The notes under the pieces: generated by a model
What the model saw: the letters and a program-made list of their open reading frames with translations, nothing else
Database searches by the model: none
Told to the model about the DNA's origin: nothing
Assembly (NCBI GenBank): GCA_013349295.1
Contig: DUZW01000019.1
Span: 1 to 63,650, forward strand
DNA: 63,650 bases
Direction of reading: 5' to 3'
Origin: Deltaproteobacteria bacterium
GTDB taxonomy: Bacteria > Desulfobacterota > Desulfobulbia > Desulfobulbales > Desulfurivibrionaceae
Shown here: positions 6,381 to 11,024 of the stretch, one piece after another
How positions within the stretch are numbered: the first letter of the stretch is position 1
How the letters are laid out: each line of letters opens with the position of its first letter
Made by a program: the position numbers and the translations under genes

Positions 6381-8204
6381 TCAGCCCTCCCCCCCGGTTG
6401 TCTTGCAAAACCCCTGGATCTCGGCAAGAAACTCAGCGCCGTAACGTTCGAGCTTGTGGGCGCCGACTCCGTGAATCCGCAAAAAAGTCTCGTTGTCGGT
6501 GGGCAGATGGGCTGCCATCTCAGCCAGGGAGACATCACTGAAAATAACAAACGGCGGAACCCCCCCTAAGTCGGCCAATCCCTTCCGCACTGCACGCAAC
6601 CGGTCAAACAGCTCCTGATTATACTCAAGGTCACCGACCTTGCGCCGGACAGCCTTGGGAAGAGCAATGGCCTTCGCCCTTGGTTTCGCCATACTGAGTG
6701 TTTGATCCCCGCGCAACAAGGGACGGGCCGACTCGCTCAATTTGAGCACCGAATAATTGCCCACATCCTGCTCCAGATACCCCTGCTGCACCAGATGCCG
6801 CAGGATGCTGCCCCAGTACTCCTGACTTTTGTCCGCGCCGATGCCATAGGTGGAAAGCCGGTCGTGCCCCAGTTGCAGGAGACGCTCCTTTTTGGAACCG
6901 CGCAAAACCTCGATCACATGCCCCACCCCAAAACGCTGATCCACCCGAAAAACACAGGACAGGGCCTTGCGCGCGTCCTCCGTCACGTCGACAAGCTCCG
7001 GAGGATTGAGGCAGATATCGCAATTCCCACAGTCCTGCTCCAACCGGTCGCCGAAATAGCCGAGCAGCACCTGACGCCGACAGCTCAGGGCCTCGGCAAA
7101 GCCCACCATGGTGTTGAGCTTGTGGAGTTCGATCCGCTTCTGTTCCGGATTATCGCTGTTCTCGATCAGACTGCGAGCCAGGATGATATCTCCATAGCCG
7201 AACAGCAGCAGGGCTTCGGCGGCCAGGCCATCGCGGCCGGCACGGCCTGTTTCCTGATAATAGCTTTCGATATTCTTGGGGATGTCGTAATGCACCACAT
7301 AGCGGATATTGGATTTGTCGATGCCCATGCCGAAGGCCACCGTGGCCACGATGATCCGGACATCGTCGCGCAGGAAATCCTCCTGCACCCGTTGGCGCTG
7401 CATGGCCGGTAGCCCGGCATGGTAGGAAGCCGCGGAAAACCCGGCATCGCGCAGCTGCTCCGTCACCTTCTCCACCCGTTTCCTGCTCAGGCAGTAGACG
7501 ATCCCCGCCTCCTCCCGCCGCCCCTGCAAAAAGCTGGTGAGCTGGGCAAAAGGCTTTTGTTTTGCCACCACGGTATAACGGATATTGGGCCGATCAAACC
7601 CGGTGACATAACACTGGGAAAGACTGAGACCCAGACGCTCGAGGATATCCTTGCGAGTATGCGGCTCGGCCGTGGCAGTGAGGGCGATCAGGGGAATATC
7701 GGGAAACAATCGGCGCAGCTGGCCGAGTTTGCTGTATTCGGGGCGAAAGTCGTGCCCCCACTGGGAAATGCAGTGCGCTTCGTCGATGGCGAACAAGGCG
7801 ATGGGAATCTCGCGGAGCCGCTCGACAAATCCATCGCTCATCAACCGTTCCGGCGCGACATAGAGCAAATCAAGCTCCTCCCGATGCAACAGGGCAAGAA
7901 CCTGACGCGCCTCCTCACTCTTCAGGGAAGAATTGTAAAAGGCCGCCCGAACCCCGCAGGCAAGAAGGGCATCCACCTGATCCTTCATCAGGGAAATCAG
8001 GGGAGAAACCACAATTCCGACACCGGCGCGGTGCAGGGCCGGAATCTGATAGCACAGCGATTTGCCGCCGCCTGTCGGCATCAGGACAAAGGCGTTCTCG
8101 CCTCGGATAAGTCCTTCGATGATCTCCTGCTGCTGCGCCCGAAAGGTATCATAGCCAAATATTTTCTTGAGGCTTTCCAGGGGGGTGCCGTTCATGCGAG
8201 TCAA
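6381..8204 (-). CDS. recQ: ATP-dependent DNA helicase RecQ
   Basis: This 607-residue 3'-5' helicase acts in recombination and repair. Walker A PTGGGKS is at residues 43-49, DEAH at 141-144, and helicase motif VI appears as QETGRAGRDG. Four zinc cysteines (CRRQ...CGNCDICL) and the RQC winged helix follow, with an HRDC domain at the C-terminus. The start is a TTG at 8204 with AAGGGGG 7 nt upstream; the ATG at 8195 is the alternative, but its spacing from that site is 16 nt. Confidence 0.95.
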   Translation of the reverse strand: MTRMNGTPLESLKKIFGYDTFRAQQQEIIEGLIRGENAFVLMPTGGGKSLCYQIPALHRAGVGIVVSPLISLMKDQVDALLACGVRAAFYNSSLKSEEARQVLALLHREELDLLYVAPERLMSDGFVERLREIPIALFAIDEAHCISQWGHDFRPEYSKLGQLRRLFPDIPLIALTATAEPHTRKDILERLGLSLSQCYVTGFDRPNIRYTVVAKQKPFAQLTSFLQGRREEAGIVYCLSRKRVEKVTEQLRDAGFSAASYHAGLPAMQRQRVQEDFLRDDVRIIVATVAFGMGIDKSNIRYVVHYDIPKNIESYYQETGRAGRDGLAAEALLLFGYGDIILARSLIENSDNPEQKRIELHKLNTMVGFAEALSCRRQVLLGYFGDRLEQDCGNCDICLNPPELVDVTEDARKALSCVFRVDQRFGVGHVIEVLRGSKKERLLQLGHDRLSTYGIGADKSQEYWGSILRHLVQQGYLEQDVGNYSVLKLSESARPLLRGDQTLSMAKPRAKAIALPKAVRRKVGDLEYNQELFDRLRAVRKGLADLGGVPPFVIFSDVSLAEMAAHLPTDNETFLRIHGVGAHKLERYGAEFLAEIQGFCKTTGGEG

Positions 8205-8335
8205 AAAATTTCCCCCTTGTTTTCATTAAGATTCATAGGCGACTCCCCCCGGTTTACAGAAAATCGTTTGCAAGATTCGCGACGTGCGGATCAGCCGGGA
8301 GGCAAATCCTTCCTCCCTTTCCGTCACACAGAAAT

Positions 8336-8905
8336 TCAGAGAAGCCGATAGGGATAGGCACGCTTGGTCCATTCGCTGTCAGGAAAAGCAACGGTCAGCT
8401 TTTCGTAGGCCGCCTTCAGCGGCTTGGCATCATGGGACCGCTTGTAGCTGCAGACTCCGACCAAAAATATGGCCTCCGGAGCGCTGCCGCTTTGCCCATA
8501 CTCCTCAAGCAGTTGCCCAAAACGGGCCAAGGCCTCGTCAAAACGGTCATTTTCATAATGATATTTGCCGAGTCCAAGCAGGAGCGAGGGGATCAACTCC
8601 TCGGGTCCGAGAAACCCCACGGTCCGGTGATGCTCCCGGCCTTCCGGACTCAAGGTTATCAGGGTGGGGGTCCATTTGACGTTAAACTTTTCCGAATGGG
8701 ACTTACTGTCGGACGGAATGCGGAGCGGGATAAAATTTTCTTCGATGAATCGGACACTCTTGCTTTCGGGATACGTAACTGTATCCATCTGTTGACAGCC
8801 AATTCAATTGGGGTTGAAAAAATCGAGCAAAACCGGTTTGCTCGCCGACCGCCCCAGACTGAGGGCCTCATCCATTTCCGTTTGCCATTTAATTTCTGCC
8901 GCCAT
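8336..8905 (-). CDS. Selenocysteine thioredoxin-like protein (in-frame UGA)
   Basis: Read from the ATG at 8905 through an in-frame TGA at 8806-8804, this gives a 189-residue protein whose residue 34 would be selenocysteine in the motif NPN-U-IGC-QQM (U34, C37). This is a thioredoxin-fold UxxC redox site on the pattern LLDFFNPNxxGCQQMD. The ATG has a strong GGAGG 8 nt upstream. Downstream come the thioredoxin cis-proline segment (WTPTLITLSPEG, about residues 78-89) and a TPR-like helical tail. Without recoding, the frame breaks into a 33-codon peptide and a later ATG at 8788 that lacks a Shine-Dalgarno and the active site. Selenocysteine is inferred from the aligned UxxC and a SECIS-like hairpin; the selA, selB and selC genes are not in the window. 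Confidence 0.85.
8769..8786 (-). promoter_or_regulatory. Candidate bacterial SECIS hairpin
   Basis: On the coding strand, 17 nt after the UGA codon, GGATAC-AGTTAC-GTATCC forms a perfect 6 bp stem with a 6 nt loop. Bacterial SECIS elements lie within the coding sequence just after the UGA, with a G among the first loop bases. The loop AGUUAC satisfies this, and the distance fits the known range. Function is inferred from position and shape. Confidence 0.6.
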
Positions 8906-8973
8906 GGTTGTTCCTCCTCGTGTAGTTGGTGGATAATCACCTTTCTCAACAACCTGCCATTCAGGCCTTTTTT

Positions 8974-9002
8974 ATTATAGGCCTTGCGAGAGAGAAAGCA
9001 AA
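8974..9002 (-). promoter_or_regulatory. Possible promoter of the selenoprotein gene
   Basis: On the minus strand a perfect TATAAT (8979-8974) lies about 70 nt before the ATG, with a weak -35 TTTGCT (9002-8997) at a 17 bp spacing. It overlaps a small AGGCC/GGCCT dyad. This is a prediction only. Confidence 0.35.
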
Positions 9003-9061
9003 CAGGTGGCGACAATGAGGGGGGAGGAAATTCCGGCATCCAAGGCGGACAAACTCTTCCC

Positions 9062-9769
9062 CTACCGGACAGCCTGGGCAATATCCTGCTGCATTGCTTC
9101 AATGACCGCGATGGGATCAACGGCCTTGGAGATAGGCCGGCCCACGACCACCTGATCGGCGCCGCTTTTGATGGCACGACCTGCGGTCATGATCCGGGTC
9201 TGGTCATCGGCAGCGTCAAGCACATTGGCGCCCGGCCTGATCCCTGGCGTAACCAAGAGCAGCCGATCGCCAAGCCCATCACGCAAGCGGGCGGCTTCAA
9301 GACCGGAGGAGACCACGCCGTCGCAGCCCAGTTCCAGCGCCCGTTTGGCCCGGAAATAGACCAAATCTTCAATGGACTGGGTCATGCCCATGGCCCGCAG
9401 GTCCTCTTCGCCGAAACTGGTGAGCACCGTCACGGCCAGCAGCTTGATCCCGCCTTTTTCCTCCAGCGCCGCCCGGATGATCGAGTCATTGCCGTGGACG
9501 GTGGCCAGACTCACTCCGTGCTTTCTAAGTTGGGCCACGGCCAGCTTGACGGTTTCCGGGATATCGAAAAACTTAAGATCAAGCATCACCTTATGACCCC
9601 GATCAACCAGCCAGTCAACGGTCTGGAACCAGTCGGCCATGAACAGCTGCAATCCGACCTTGTAAAAGCCGAGATGGGATTCGGTTTTTTTCACCAGCTC
9701 CTTGGCCTGCTCCGGCGTTTCCACATCAAGGGCCAGGATGATCCGTTCTTTCAAGGGAATATCTTTCAC
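9062..9769 (-). CDS. pyrF: Orotidine 5'-phosphate decarboxylase
   Basis: This 235-residue TIM-barrel enzyme makes UMP from OMP in the last step of pyrimidine synthesis. The catalytic D-x-K-x-x-D motif is visible as LDLKFFDIPET near residue 65, the N-terminal ILALDV strand binds substrate, and the phosphate loop is VTPGIRPG...VVVGRPIS. Length matches the family. It lies downstream of lptC on the same strand, 41 nt away. Confidence 0.96.
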   Translation of the reverse strand: MKDIPLKERIILALDVETPEQAKELVKKTESHLGFYKVGLQLFMADWFQTVDWLVDRGHKVMLDLKFFDIPETVKLAVAQLRKHGVSLATVHGNDSIIRAALEEKGGIKLLAVTVLTSFGEEDLRAMGMTQSIEDLVYFRAKRALELGCDGVVSSGLEAARLRDGLGDRLLLVTPGIRPGANVLDAADDQTRIMTAGRAIKSGADQVVVGRPISKAVDPIAVIEAMQQDIAQAVR

Positions 9770-9810
9770 GCGCCGCCTTTTTCCTTTTCTCTTTGTGCTC
9801 TTCTTTCGCC

Positions 9811-10383
9811 CTACCTGATATCCACCTTCACCCGACCGCGGATATCATAGGAATCATTCCGCATGTCATAATCCATCCCATTGCCGCGGATATCTATGTC
9901 TTTGTCGGAGATCCGCACCGGCATCTTGGTCGTGATCCTGTGGGTCTGGTCATCATAGCTGATGCTGTCGGACTGAACCAGAAACCCCTTCTCGGCCTGC
10001 ACGTTGACTCGATTGCGCAGGATAAGATTTTTTTTCTTATTGTTGTATTCGCCTTCCTGACCGGTGATAACAAATCTGCGCTGGTCGTTTTTAAAAACCT
10101 GCGCCTCCACCGTTTCCAGTTGCATTATGTCCTGATCTTTTCCGGCATACAGCCGTTTGGCCTGGATCTGCCAGTCCCGCACCCCGTTTTTCAGCTGCGA
10201 GAACAAGATCCCCTCCATACTGAAACCCGCACCCGTGGTTGTTGTTTGGGGGGGGGCGGCAAGTTTGGCGGCCAGGTCGCCGCGCGGGGCCAGGAGGCGG
10301 GTAATTGCCCCGCCCCAAATCGGCCAGGAGAGTAAAAGGGCCACCGGCAACACCCAGAGGATATTACGAAAGCCGGTCATCAT
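9811..10383 (-). CDS. lptC: LptC-like LPS export protein
   Basis: This 190-residue protein has one N-terminal membrane helix (residues about 7-24) and a periplasmic beta-jellyroll. The pattern GxxG...Y.N.KKNLILRNRVNVQAEKGFLVQSDSISYD...IRGNGMDYDMRNDSYDIRGRVKVDI is the LptC/LptA organic-solvent-tolerance fold. It would link LPS from LptBFG to LptA in the envelope. The start overlaps the kdsC stop as ATGA. The usual lptA and lptB partners are not adjacent; pyrF follows. Confidence 0.85.
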   Translation of the reverse strand: MMTGFRNILWVLPVALLLSWPIWGGAITRLLAPRGDLAAKLAAPPQTTTTGAGFSMEGILFSQLKNGVRDWQIQAKRLYAGKDQDIMQLETVEAQVFKNDQRRFVITGQEGEYNNKKKNLILRNRVNVQAEKGFLVQSDSISYDDQTHRITTKMPVRISDKDIDIRGNGMDYDMRNDSYDIRGRVKVDIR

Positions 10384-11024
10384 CGCAGGTACCGCCCAAG
10401 CAGTTCTTCACGCAGGTTCTTGGCTTCGATGATCAGATCGCACAACTCGCGCACCGCCCCTCGGCCGCCTTCACGCTTGCTCACATAATGGACAACCGCC
10501 TTGACCTCGGCCACGGCGTCGGCTGTGGTCACCGCCAGGCCGACCCGGCTGAGCAGGGGCAGATCAAGCCAATCATCCCCCATGTAAGCGACCTCCTTGG
10601 GGGAGAGCTTCTGCTCACCGATAATCCGGTCAAAGACCTCGATCTTGTTCCGCACCCCCTGATAGACATGGGCCAGCTTCAAATCCTGGGCCCGACGCTG
10701 CACCGCCTCGGAGCTGCGGGCCGTGATCAACCCAACCTCGACCCCGGCCTCCTGCAGAAGGCGAATGCCGAAGCCGTCCTTGGTGTTGAACGACTTCAGT
10801 TCGGTGCCCGACTGGGCATATACCACGGAACCGTCGGTAAGGACCCCGTCCACATCCAGAAGCAGCAGACGGATTTCCTTGGCCAACGGCAGGCAATTCC
10901 GCCAGACATAACCGCGCTCGTTCTGTTCCGTACGGGCCAGCGCCCGTTGCCGCAATCCCTCAAGAATCTCGCAGTCGGAAGGGTACTTGCCTCCAGGAAT
11001 ACCACAGGTACCGGAGTCGGTCAT
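10380..11024 (-). CDS. kdsC: 3-deoxy-D-manno-octulosonate 8-phosphate phosphatase
   Basis: This 214-residue HAD-superfamily phosphatase makes Kdo from Kdo-8-P for LPS inner core synthesis. Motif I is LLLLDVDGVLTDG, motif II VGLITARSS, and the acidic motif III is AYMGDDWLDLPLL. About 45 residues precede motif I, longer than the typical KdsC N-terminus, but no other Met lies between, and the ATG at 11024 overlaps the kdsA stop (ATGA). It is coupled to kdsA and lptC. Confidence 0.95.
   Translation of the reverse strand: MTDSGTCGIPGGKYPSDCEILEGLRQRALARTEQNERGYVWRNCLPLAKEIRLLLLDVDGVLTDGSVVYAQSGTELKSFNTKDGFGIRLLQEAGVEVGLITARSSEAVQRRAQDLKLAHVYQGVRNKIEVFDRIIGEQKLSPKEVAYMGDDWLDLPLLSRVGLAVTTADAVAEVKAVVHYVSKREGGRGAVRELCDLIIEAKNLREELLGRYLR

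Follow-up and report, generated by a model that had tools for sequence, protein, structure and literature searches.

An in-frame TGA, very probably read as selenocysteine, at the active site of a predicted thioredoxin-like protein with a TPR-like tail

On the minus strand of the window, the whole stretch of 63,650 nucleotides that was analysed, lies a gene whose product is predicted to be a cytoplasmic selenoprotein of 189 residues. Sec34 and Cys37 would act together as a thiol-disulfide reductase, and a TPR tail would dock a client or partner. From the sequence and the modelled fold, a probability of roughly 0.85 is assigned to this reading. The in-frame TGA on which it turns is very probably read as selenocysteine, and close versions of the protein occur in many oxygen-avoiding bacteria. 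The features of the gene and its surroundings are listed in Table 1.

Table 1. Positions of the gene, its elements and its two neighbours in the window
Feature	Position	Strand	Basis
recQ, downstream neighbour	6381..8204	-	TIGR01389, 799 bits, over cut-off
Whole coding frame, 189 residues, Sec at position 34, terminal TGA included	8336..8905	-	Conservation, dN/dS
TPR-like helical tail, about residues 106-189	8339..8590	-	
Thioredoxin-like domain, about residues 1-105, WTP loop at 78-80	8591..8905	-	
SECIS-like hairpin, 6-bp stem, 6-nt loop (8780-8775) with invariant G and U	8769..8786	-	Covariation, synonymous constraint
Cys37, resolving Cys of U-I-G-C	8795..8797	-	Invariant in both family alignments
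In-frame TGA, U34, first residue of UxxC	8804..8806	-	TGA column in relatives; Cys in L157, L158 and L161
Shine-Dalgarno AGGAGG, 7 nt before the ATG at 8905	8913..8918	-	Sequence
pyrF (orotidine-5'-phosphate decarboxylase), upstream neighbour	9062..9769	-	NF001273, 233 bits, over cut-off

Reading frame, start site and conservation of the TGA codon

The preliminary description, made from the DNA letters alone, had placed a TGA at the first active-site Cys of a thioredoxin-fold protein (NPN-U-IGC), with a strong Shine-Dalgarno before the upstream ATG and a frame running on to 8336. These points were borne out. From the ATG at 8905, 33 codons lead to the TGA at 8806-8804, which stands in the context LLDFFNPN-U-IGCQQM at the first active-site position of the fold and is conserved as a column in relatives; it is the single in-frame TGA before the terminal one at 8338-8336, which follows after 155 codons. 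The AGGAGG was found at the spacing given in Table 1. It had also been foreseen that automatic calling would yield a truncated protein, and the list of open reading frames indeed has, in the same frame, one of 150 residues that begins at the inner ATG at 8788. Gene callers would start the protein after its active site, so that in many genomes it is probably annotated without the redox centre or not at all. Inspection of the frame by eye revealed no hydrophobic leader, from which we infer a cytoplasmic location.

The conservation of the TGA was followed in 40 loci drawn from a search that covered 97 genomes from the genus, the family and the order, among them the source genome; the strongest matches in it each contain one TGA. 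In 39 of the loci the codon at this column is TGA and the frame is open, L047 included, where the C-terminal half is missing from the frame. In the remaining locus, L048 of genome G024, which belongs to the same bacterial family as the source and has SelB, the TGA is present and the frame is shifted just after it. A full-length match was absent from 5 of the 17 genus members (G002, G006, G009, G010 and G016), all of which are draft assemblies of 85-91% completeness. In wider searches the codon at this column was TGA in 108 of 108 loci and never TAA or TAG. Eighty of these were kept from 142 relatives found in a scan of named genomes, and 28 came from searching 395 genomes of the phylum with a profile. 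As the patterns used for the scan are located after the TGA, they did not select for Sec over Cys. The 40-locus and 108-locus sets overlap, and their 147 sequences reduce to 113 distinct stretches of 99 nt. TGA at this column is more than chance.

Among the matches listed in the phylum search, 91 by row count cover at least 145 of the 189 positions; of these, 80 contain one TGA and 11 contain no TGA. This striking dominance of Sec makes the family well suited to the question of why anaerobes need selenium for disulfide exchange in their cytoplasm. The titles of the records that carry the gene include Desulfobulbaceae, Desulfurivibrio, Syntrophaceae, Desulfomonile, Nitrospirota, Nitrospinota and Candidatus Brocadia. 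Residues that do not vary in either alignment include W7, F29, U34, G36, C37, M40, W78-T79-P80, G97, W179, P185 and Y186. Judging from the median dN/dS, which is 0.139 before the TGA and 0.106 after it (91 pairs, 14 close genomes), purifying selection acts on both sides of the codon. A copy 78% identical to the window protein was met in a record titled Draconibacterium orientale (L058), which reflects either a mislabelled bin or a transfer.

The same region could be read as two cistrons, a leader of 33 residues that ends at the TGA and a protein of 150 residues that starts at the ATG at 8788. The inner start codon, Met40, is ATG in all 113 distinct TGA genes and invariant in the alignments, and automatic calling yields exactly this frame. 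However, AGGA, GGAG or GAGG occurs within 20 nt before the inner ATG in none of the 113 genes, whereas it precedes the upstream start within that distance in 104. The leader shows a constraint similar to that of the remaining frame, the stop would never have been TAA or TAG, and the CxxC homologues consist of one uninterrupted open frame. Moreover, the inner ATG overlaps the base of the hairpin described below, which by itself can explain its invariance. Two cistrons are accordingly very improbable, and the Shine-Dalgarno counts at the two starts together with the low dN/dS on either side make one conserved protein the best reading. That the gene is decaying or the TGA a sequencing artefact, as the frameshift in L048 might suggest, has a negligible probability and is already refuted by conservation, since the same TGA recurs in separate assemblies titled from several phyla and dN/dS after it is low.

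Eighteen further loci with weaker or TGA-less matches were collected. Eleven have no TGA at the site (L157-L167), six have one (L169-L174), and in the last, L168, the match is limited to positions 71-169. According to the preliminary description, homologues showing no Cys at this codon would have spoken against a selenoprotein. Cys was found aligned to the TGA codon in L157 and L158 (both CVGC) and in L161 (CGGC); over 185 residues, L157 and the window protein share 38% identity. At the active site CxxS is present in L159, L162, L163 and L165-L167, and no Cys in L160 and L164. In a tree of 85 rows the 11 rows without Sec require three changes. L157 is the sister of L171 (UVGC) with support 100/99; SelB is not over its cut-off in the L157 genome (G373) and is over it in the L171 genome (G269). 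This pair fits a replacement of Sec by Cys after loss of the Sec system, as one pair and not as a statistic, and it offers a natural comparison between a Cys form without SelB and a Sec form with it.

The loci L159-L167 belong to family f72, whose members have CxxS, no Cys or CGGC and of which G211 and G308 hold two copies each. Their active site is decayed or changed, and SelB is not over the cut-off in 3 of the 7 genomes. Other proteins with a similar motif were also noticed. L179 and L180 (f21 genomes) encode a short, cytoplasmic-looking thioredoxin-like protein with UPHC (TGA), and L182 has CPHC; from their sequences these look like a separate Sec/Cys family. In L186 (G325) a frame on the plus strand from base 2958 encodes a thioredoxin-like protein that combines a hydrophobic leader with WUAFC (TGA) and is a candidate selenoprotein, probably exported.

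The hairpin after the TGA and the selenocysteine machinery

A bacterial SECIS is characterized, in the passages of PMC1088965 that deal with it, by a small apical loop with a guanosine. The transcript of the gene would have a stem-loop of this kind after the UGA, with a G in its small apical loop; the distance from TGA to loop is 23 nt. The comparison used 92 sequences with at least 4 differences over 57 nt; in these the stem is formed by columns 21-26 and 33-38 around the 6-nt loop, in which G28 and U29 are invariant. Of 552 stem cells 99.5% are paired, and sliding the stem partner drops pairing to 65% or less. In nine cells both partners have changed and the pairing is retained; shuffles gave 0.5 such cells on average, and none of 500 gave as many. 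Two pairs show a double-sided change of this kind, a value reached in 28 of 500 shuffles.

Synonymous codon use is under its strongest constraint at codons +7 to +11 (G statistic 60-260). Thr at codon +10 is encoded by ACG in 85 of 85 cases, and within the same five codons Tyr is TAT in 82 of 85 and Val is GTT in 75 of 92. Outside the hairpin codons a comparable value is reached by Gly at +2 (G 68), the other columns from -20 to +35 being at 33 or below. The 113 TGA genes fold with a median of -7.9 kcal/mol and none more weakly than -5.7, whereas weak folding of this stretch (-5.2 to 0.0 kcal/mol) was obtained for 9 of the 11 genes without Sec, the two that lack the motif having been left out of the scoring. 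The hairpin is kept with changed letters in the divergent Sec genes L169-L172, and no clear hairpin was seen at that place in the divergent TGA members L173 and L174. The evidence for the hairpin rests on comparison, because on its own the window hairpin barely stands out: folding as good as its own was seen in 267 of 5000 synonymous shuffles. Of the three Rfam matches in 8336-9000, none reached its gathering score. The Brocadia-titled records L100, L103, L119, L126 and L128 have the TGA form with the same stem letters.

A genome devoid of Sec machinery had been named in the preliminary description as another argument against it. The source genome (G000; 2.9 Mb in 66 contigs, 88% complete) proved to have selA (619 bits, cut-off 268), selB (359, cut-off 242), selD (378, cut-off 125) and a tRNA-Sec (69, cut-off 47), the last confirmed by ARAGORN with anticodon tca. 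Its selD has an in-frame TGA of its own near the start, in AGUAAK, which we take to be the usual Sec site of SelD. SelD is entered with a UxxK motif in the list of PMC13188914 that was drawn on. A reading of the TGA as Trp is unlikely, as the gene itself ends in TGA and the genome has a tRNA-Sec.

The presence of SelB was surveyed in 80 chosen genomes. Among the 43 genomes with the TGA form, 40 have a SelB that passes the cut-off (the misses being G004, G017, at 60% completeness, and G044); so do 5 of 9 genomes with forms lacking Sec (misses G373, G286, G368 and G459) and 23 of 28 that have no intact full-length gene. Because SelB is also common where the gene is not intact, the link is weak as a statistic. 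Given the sequence and the machinery of the source genome, SelB would recognise the hairpin, which lies 20-37 nt downstream of the first base of the UGA, and would insert Sec at position 34.

Predicted fold, neighbourhood and probable mechanism

The expectation of a thioredoxin fold followed by a TPR-like tail agreed with the Pfam matches and with a predicted model of high confidence (pLDDT 96), in which a DsbD-gamma-like thioredoxin domain is joined to TPR helices. Thioredoxin_2 (PF13098) matches the window protein with 38 bits (gathering cut-off 27) and 65 of 65 members at E 0.001. None of the NCBIfam models reaches its cut-off with the window protein. The best of them, TsoB (NF045694), gives 43 bits against a cut-off of 805 over 112 of 572 model positions, and matches all 65 members at E 0.001. 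The DsbD model (NF001419) gives 31.5 bits against 330, in its last domain only; the VPGUxxT models give 26.9 against 275 (NF041383) and 21.1 against 350 (NF041382), and the thioredoxin model 25.7 against 96.8. Structure matches of the model go to DsbD-gamma, BamD and YbbN, and the tail sequence matches the TPRs of BamD, CpoB and YbgF.

The gene has different neighbours in different lineages. In 11 of the 14 closest loci (L049-L061 and L078) the next gene downstream belongs to one BLAST cluster of flavoproteins. The one examined, of L051, contains Pyr_redox_2 and a CVDC motif and gives 122 bits with TIGR01292, below the cut-off of 343. In that locus (6565-10389) the flavoprotein is followed by the alpha and beta subunits of a 2-oxoacid:ferredoxin oxidoreductase and then by recQ, whereas in the window recQ directly adjoins the gene (interval 8204-8336), with no flavoprotein between. 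A close match to the flavoprotein was not found in the source assembly, where the best is 29-30% identical. Among 128 neighbouring ORFs of 41 divergent loci Pyr_redox_2 occurs in 5 and Response_reg in 7, and no dominant neighbour family appears among the 25 of 199 families listed. The gene is therefore mostly a stand-alone unit. Rubrerythrins, pirin and FMN reductase were picked by hand near some copies; downstream of the gene lie a pirin (by Pfam) in L103 and an ORF of the same cluster in L119.

On the basis of fold and motif, Sec34 would attack and Cys37 resolve, by which disulfides or other oxidised thiols of a client would be reduced, while the C-terminal TPR helices may dock the client or a partner. 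The oxidised Se-S bond could be reset by a flavoprotein reductase such as the TrxR-like product of the next gene in several close relatives. In the source a general thioredoxin reductase would have to serve, because no close match to the flavoprotein exists in its assembly.

Comparison with known systems

The family may already have been predicted as 'Thiol:disulfide interchange protein'; otherwise the TPR-tailed variant would be new. Under that name a predicted selenoprotein with PF13098 and UxxC is entered in the tables drawn on (PMC13188914, PMC9312934). We consider it somewhat short of an even chance that the gene belongs to this computationally predicted Sec family (WP_011366075.1), in which case the description of the TPR tail would be all that is added. 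Compared by description, both have PF13098, over its cut-off in the window protein, the same UxxC motif and deltaproteobacterial hosts. The published entries are for Geobacter metallireducens, G. uraniumreducens and Syntrophus aciditrophicus (PMC1794560, PMC13188914), and Syntrophaceae-titled records carry the present gene. However, other thioredoxin-like UxxC proteins of the phylum, the short UPHC and the exported WUAFC proteins, could equally bear the name, and the table passages make no mention of a TPR tail. Cytochrome_C7, looked for as a pointer to Geobacteraceae, showed few matches in the f21 genomes, so that a tie to the published Geobacter protein is tentative. Passages of further papers were also drawn on (PMC2702500, PMC12013277). 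No Sec thioredoxin with a TPR tail was found in the literature searched, which mostly comprised papers outside subscription.

The window protein resembles the gamma domain of DsbD in its predicted fold, but DsbD is a membrane protein with CxxC and its model is far from reaching the cut-off. It matches the DsbD-like end of TsoB, the rhodanese/DsbD fusion selenoprotein, but has one Sec, whereas two are given for TsoB in the list of PMC13188914. With the VPGUxxT selenoproteins it shares a thioredoxin-like fold and an active-site Sec, its motif being UxxC (NPNUIGC) and not UxxT. The Sec-containing thioredoxin GSU3446 of Geobacter has the same fold with UxxC, according to the passages on it in PMC1914089 and, for the motif, PMC13188914; the window protein differs by its additional TPR tail and lies far under the cut-off of the thioredoxin model.

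A known system of similar architecture is the chaperedoxin CnoX (YbbN). In the predicted model of the window protein a thioredoxin domain is fused to a C-terminal TPR domain, the arrangement that characterizes CnoX, and the two best PDB matches in Foldseek are YbbN/CnoX itself (3qou; E 1.7e-7, probability 1.00) and a Salmonella thioredoxin-like protein (3qdn). By analogy with CnoX, a holdase that transfers clients to GroEL/ES, the TPR tail might hold unfolding clients and hand them on while the Sec site protects or reduces their cysteines, which is possible although we regard it as doubtful. It is consistent with the domain order, the same as that of CnoX in the passages of PMC8129009, and the CxxS members of f72 are reminiscent of E. 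coli CnoX, in which one active-site Cys has been lost. TPR_20 (PF14561), which we take to mark CnoX, has no match over its cut-off in the source genome and does have matches in the E. coli and Caulobacter controls and in Corynebacterium. On the other hand, the superposition of the whole chain on YbbN/CnoX was poor (TM 0.42, rmsd 12.0), YbbN was absent from the 50 VIA-align matches listed, and the tail resembles the TPRs of BamD, CpoB and YbgF in sequence. TPR_20 is not among the 12 families that match the 65 members at E 0.001, and 6 of 12 genomes carrying the gene have some TPR_20 match over the cut-off, which may or may not be a CnoX. Furthermore, the tail of about 85 residues contrasts with the two five-helix subdomains described for CnoX in PMC8129009.

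The broader proposal, to which we give still less credence, is a Sec-dependent chaperedoxin-like family in which a TPR-tailed cytoplasmic Sec-thioredoxin would do the work of CnoX in anaerobes (sulfate reducers, Nitrospirota and anammox Brocadia), with most members keeping Sec while a few lineages, some without SelB, would have changed to CxxC or to a decayed CxxS form. The preferred reading, a reductase with a docking tail, shares with CnoX the N-terminal thioredoxin fold, the TPR helices and, as far as can be judged from the frame, the cytoplasmic location; the passages on CnoX in PMC8129009 and PMC6282202 describe CxxC or SxxC, make no mention of Sec and give it a longer TPR part than that of the window protein. 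If the tail does bind clients, the thioredoxin-TPR arrangement of CnoX would have a selenium-containing counterpart in this protein.
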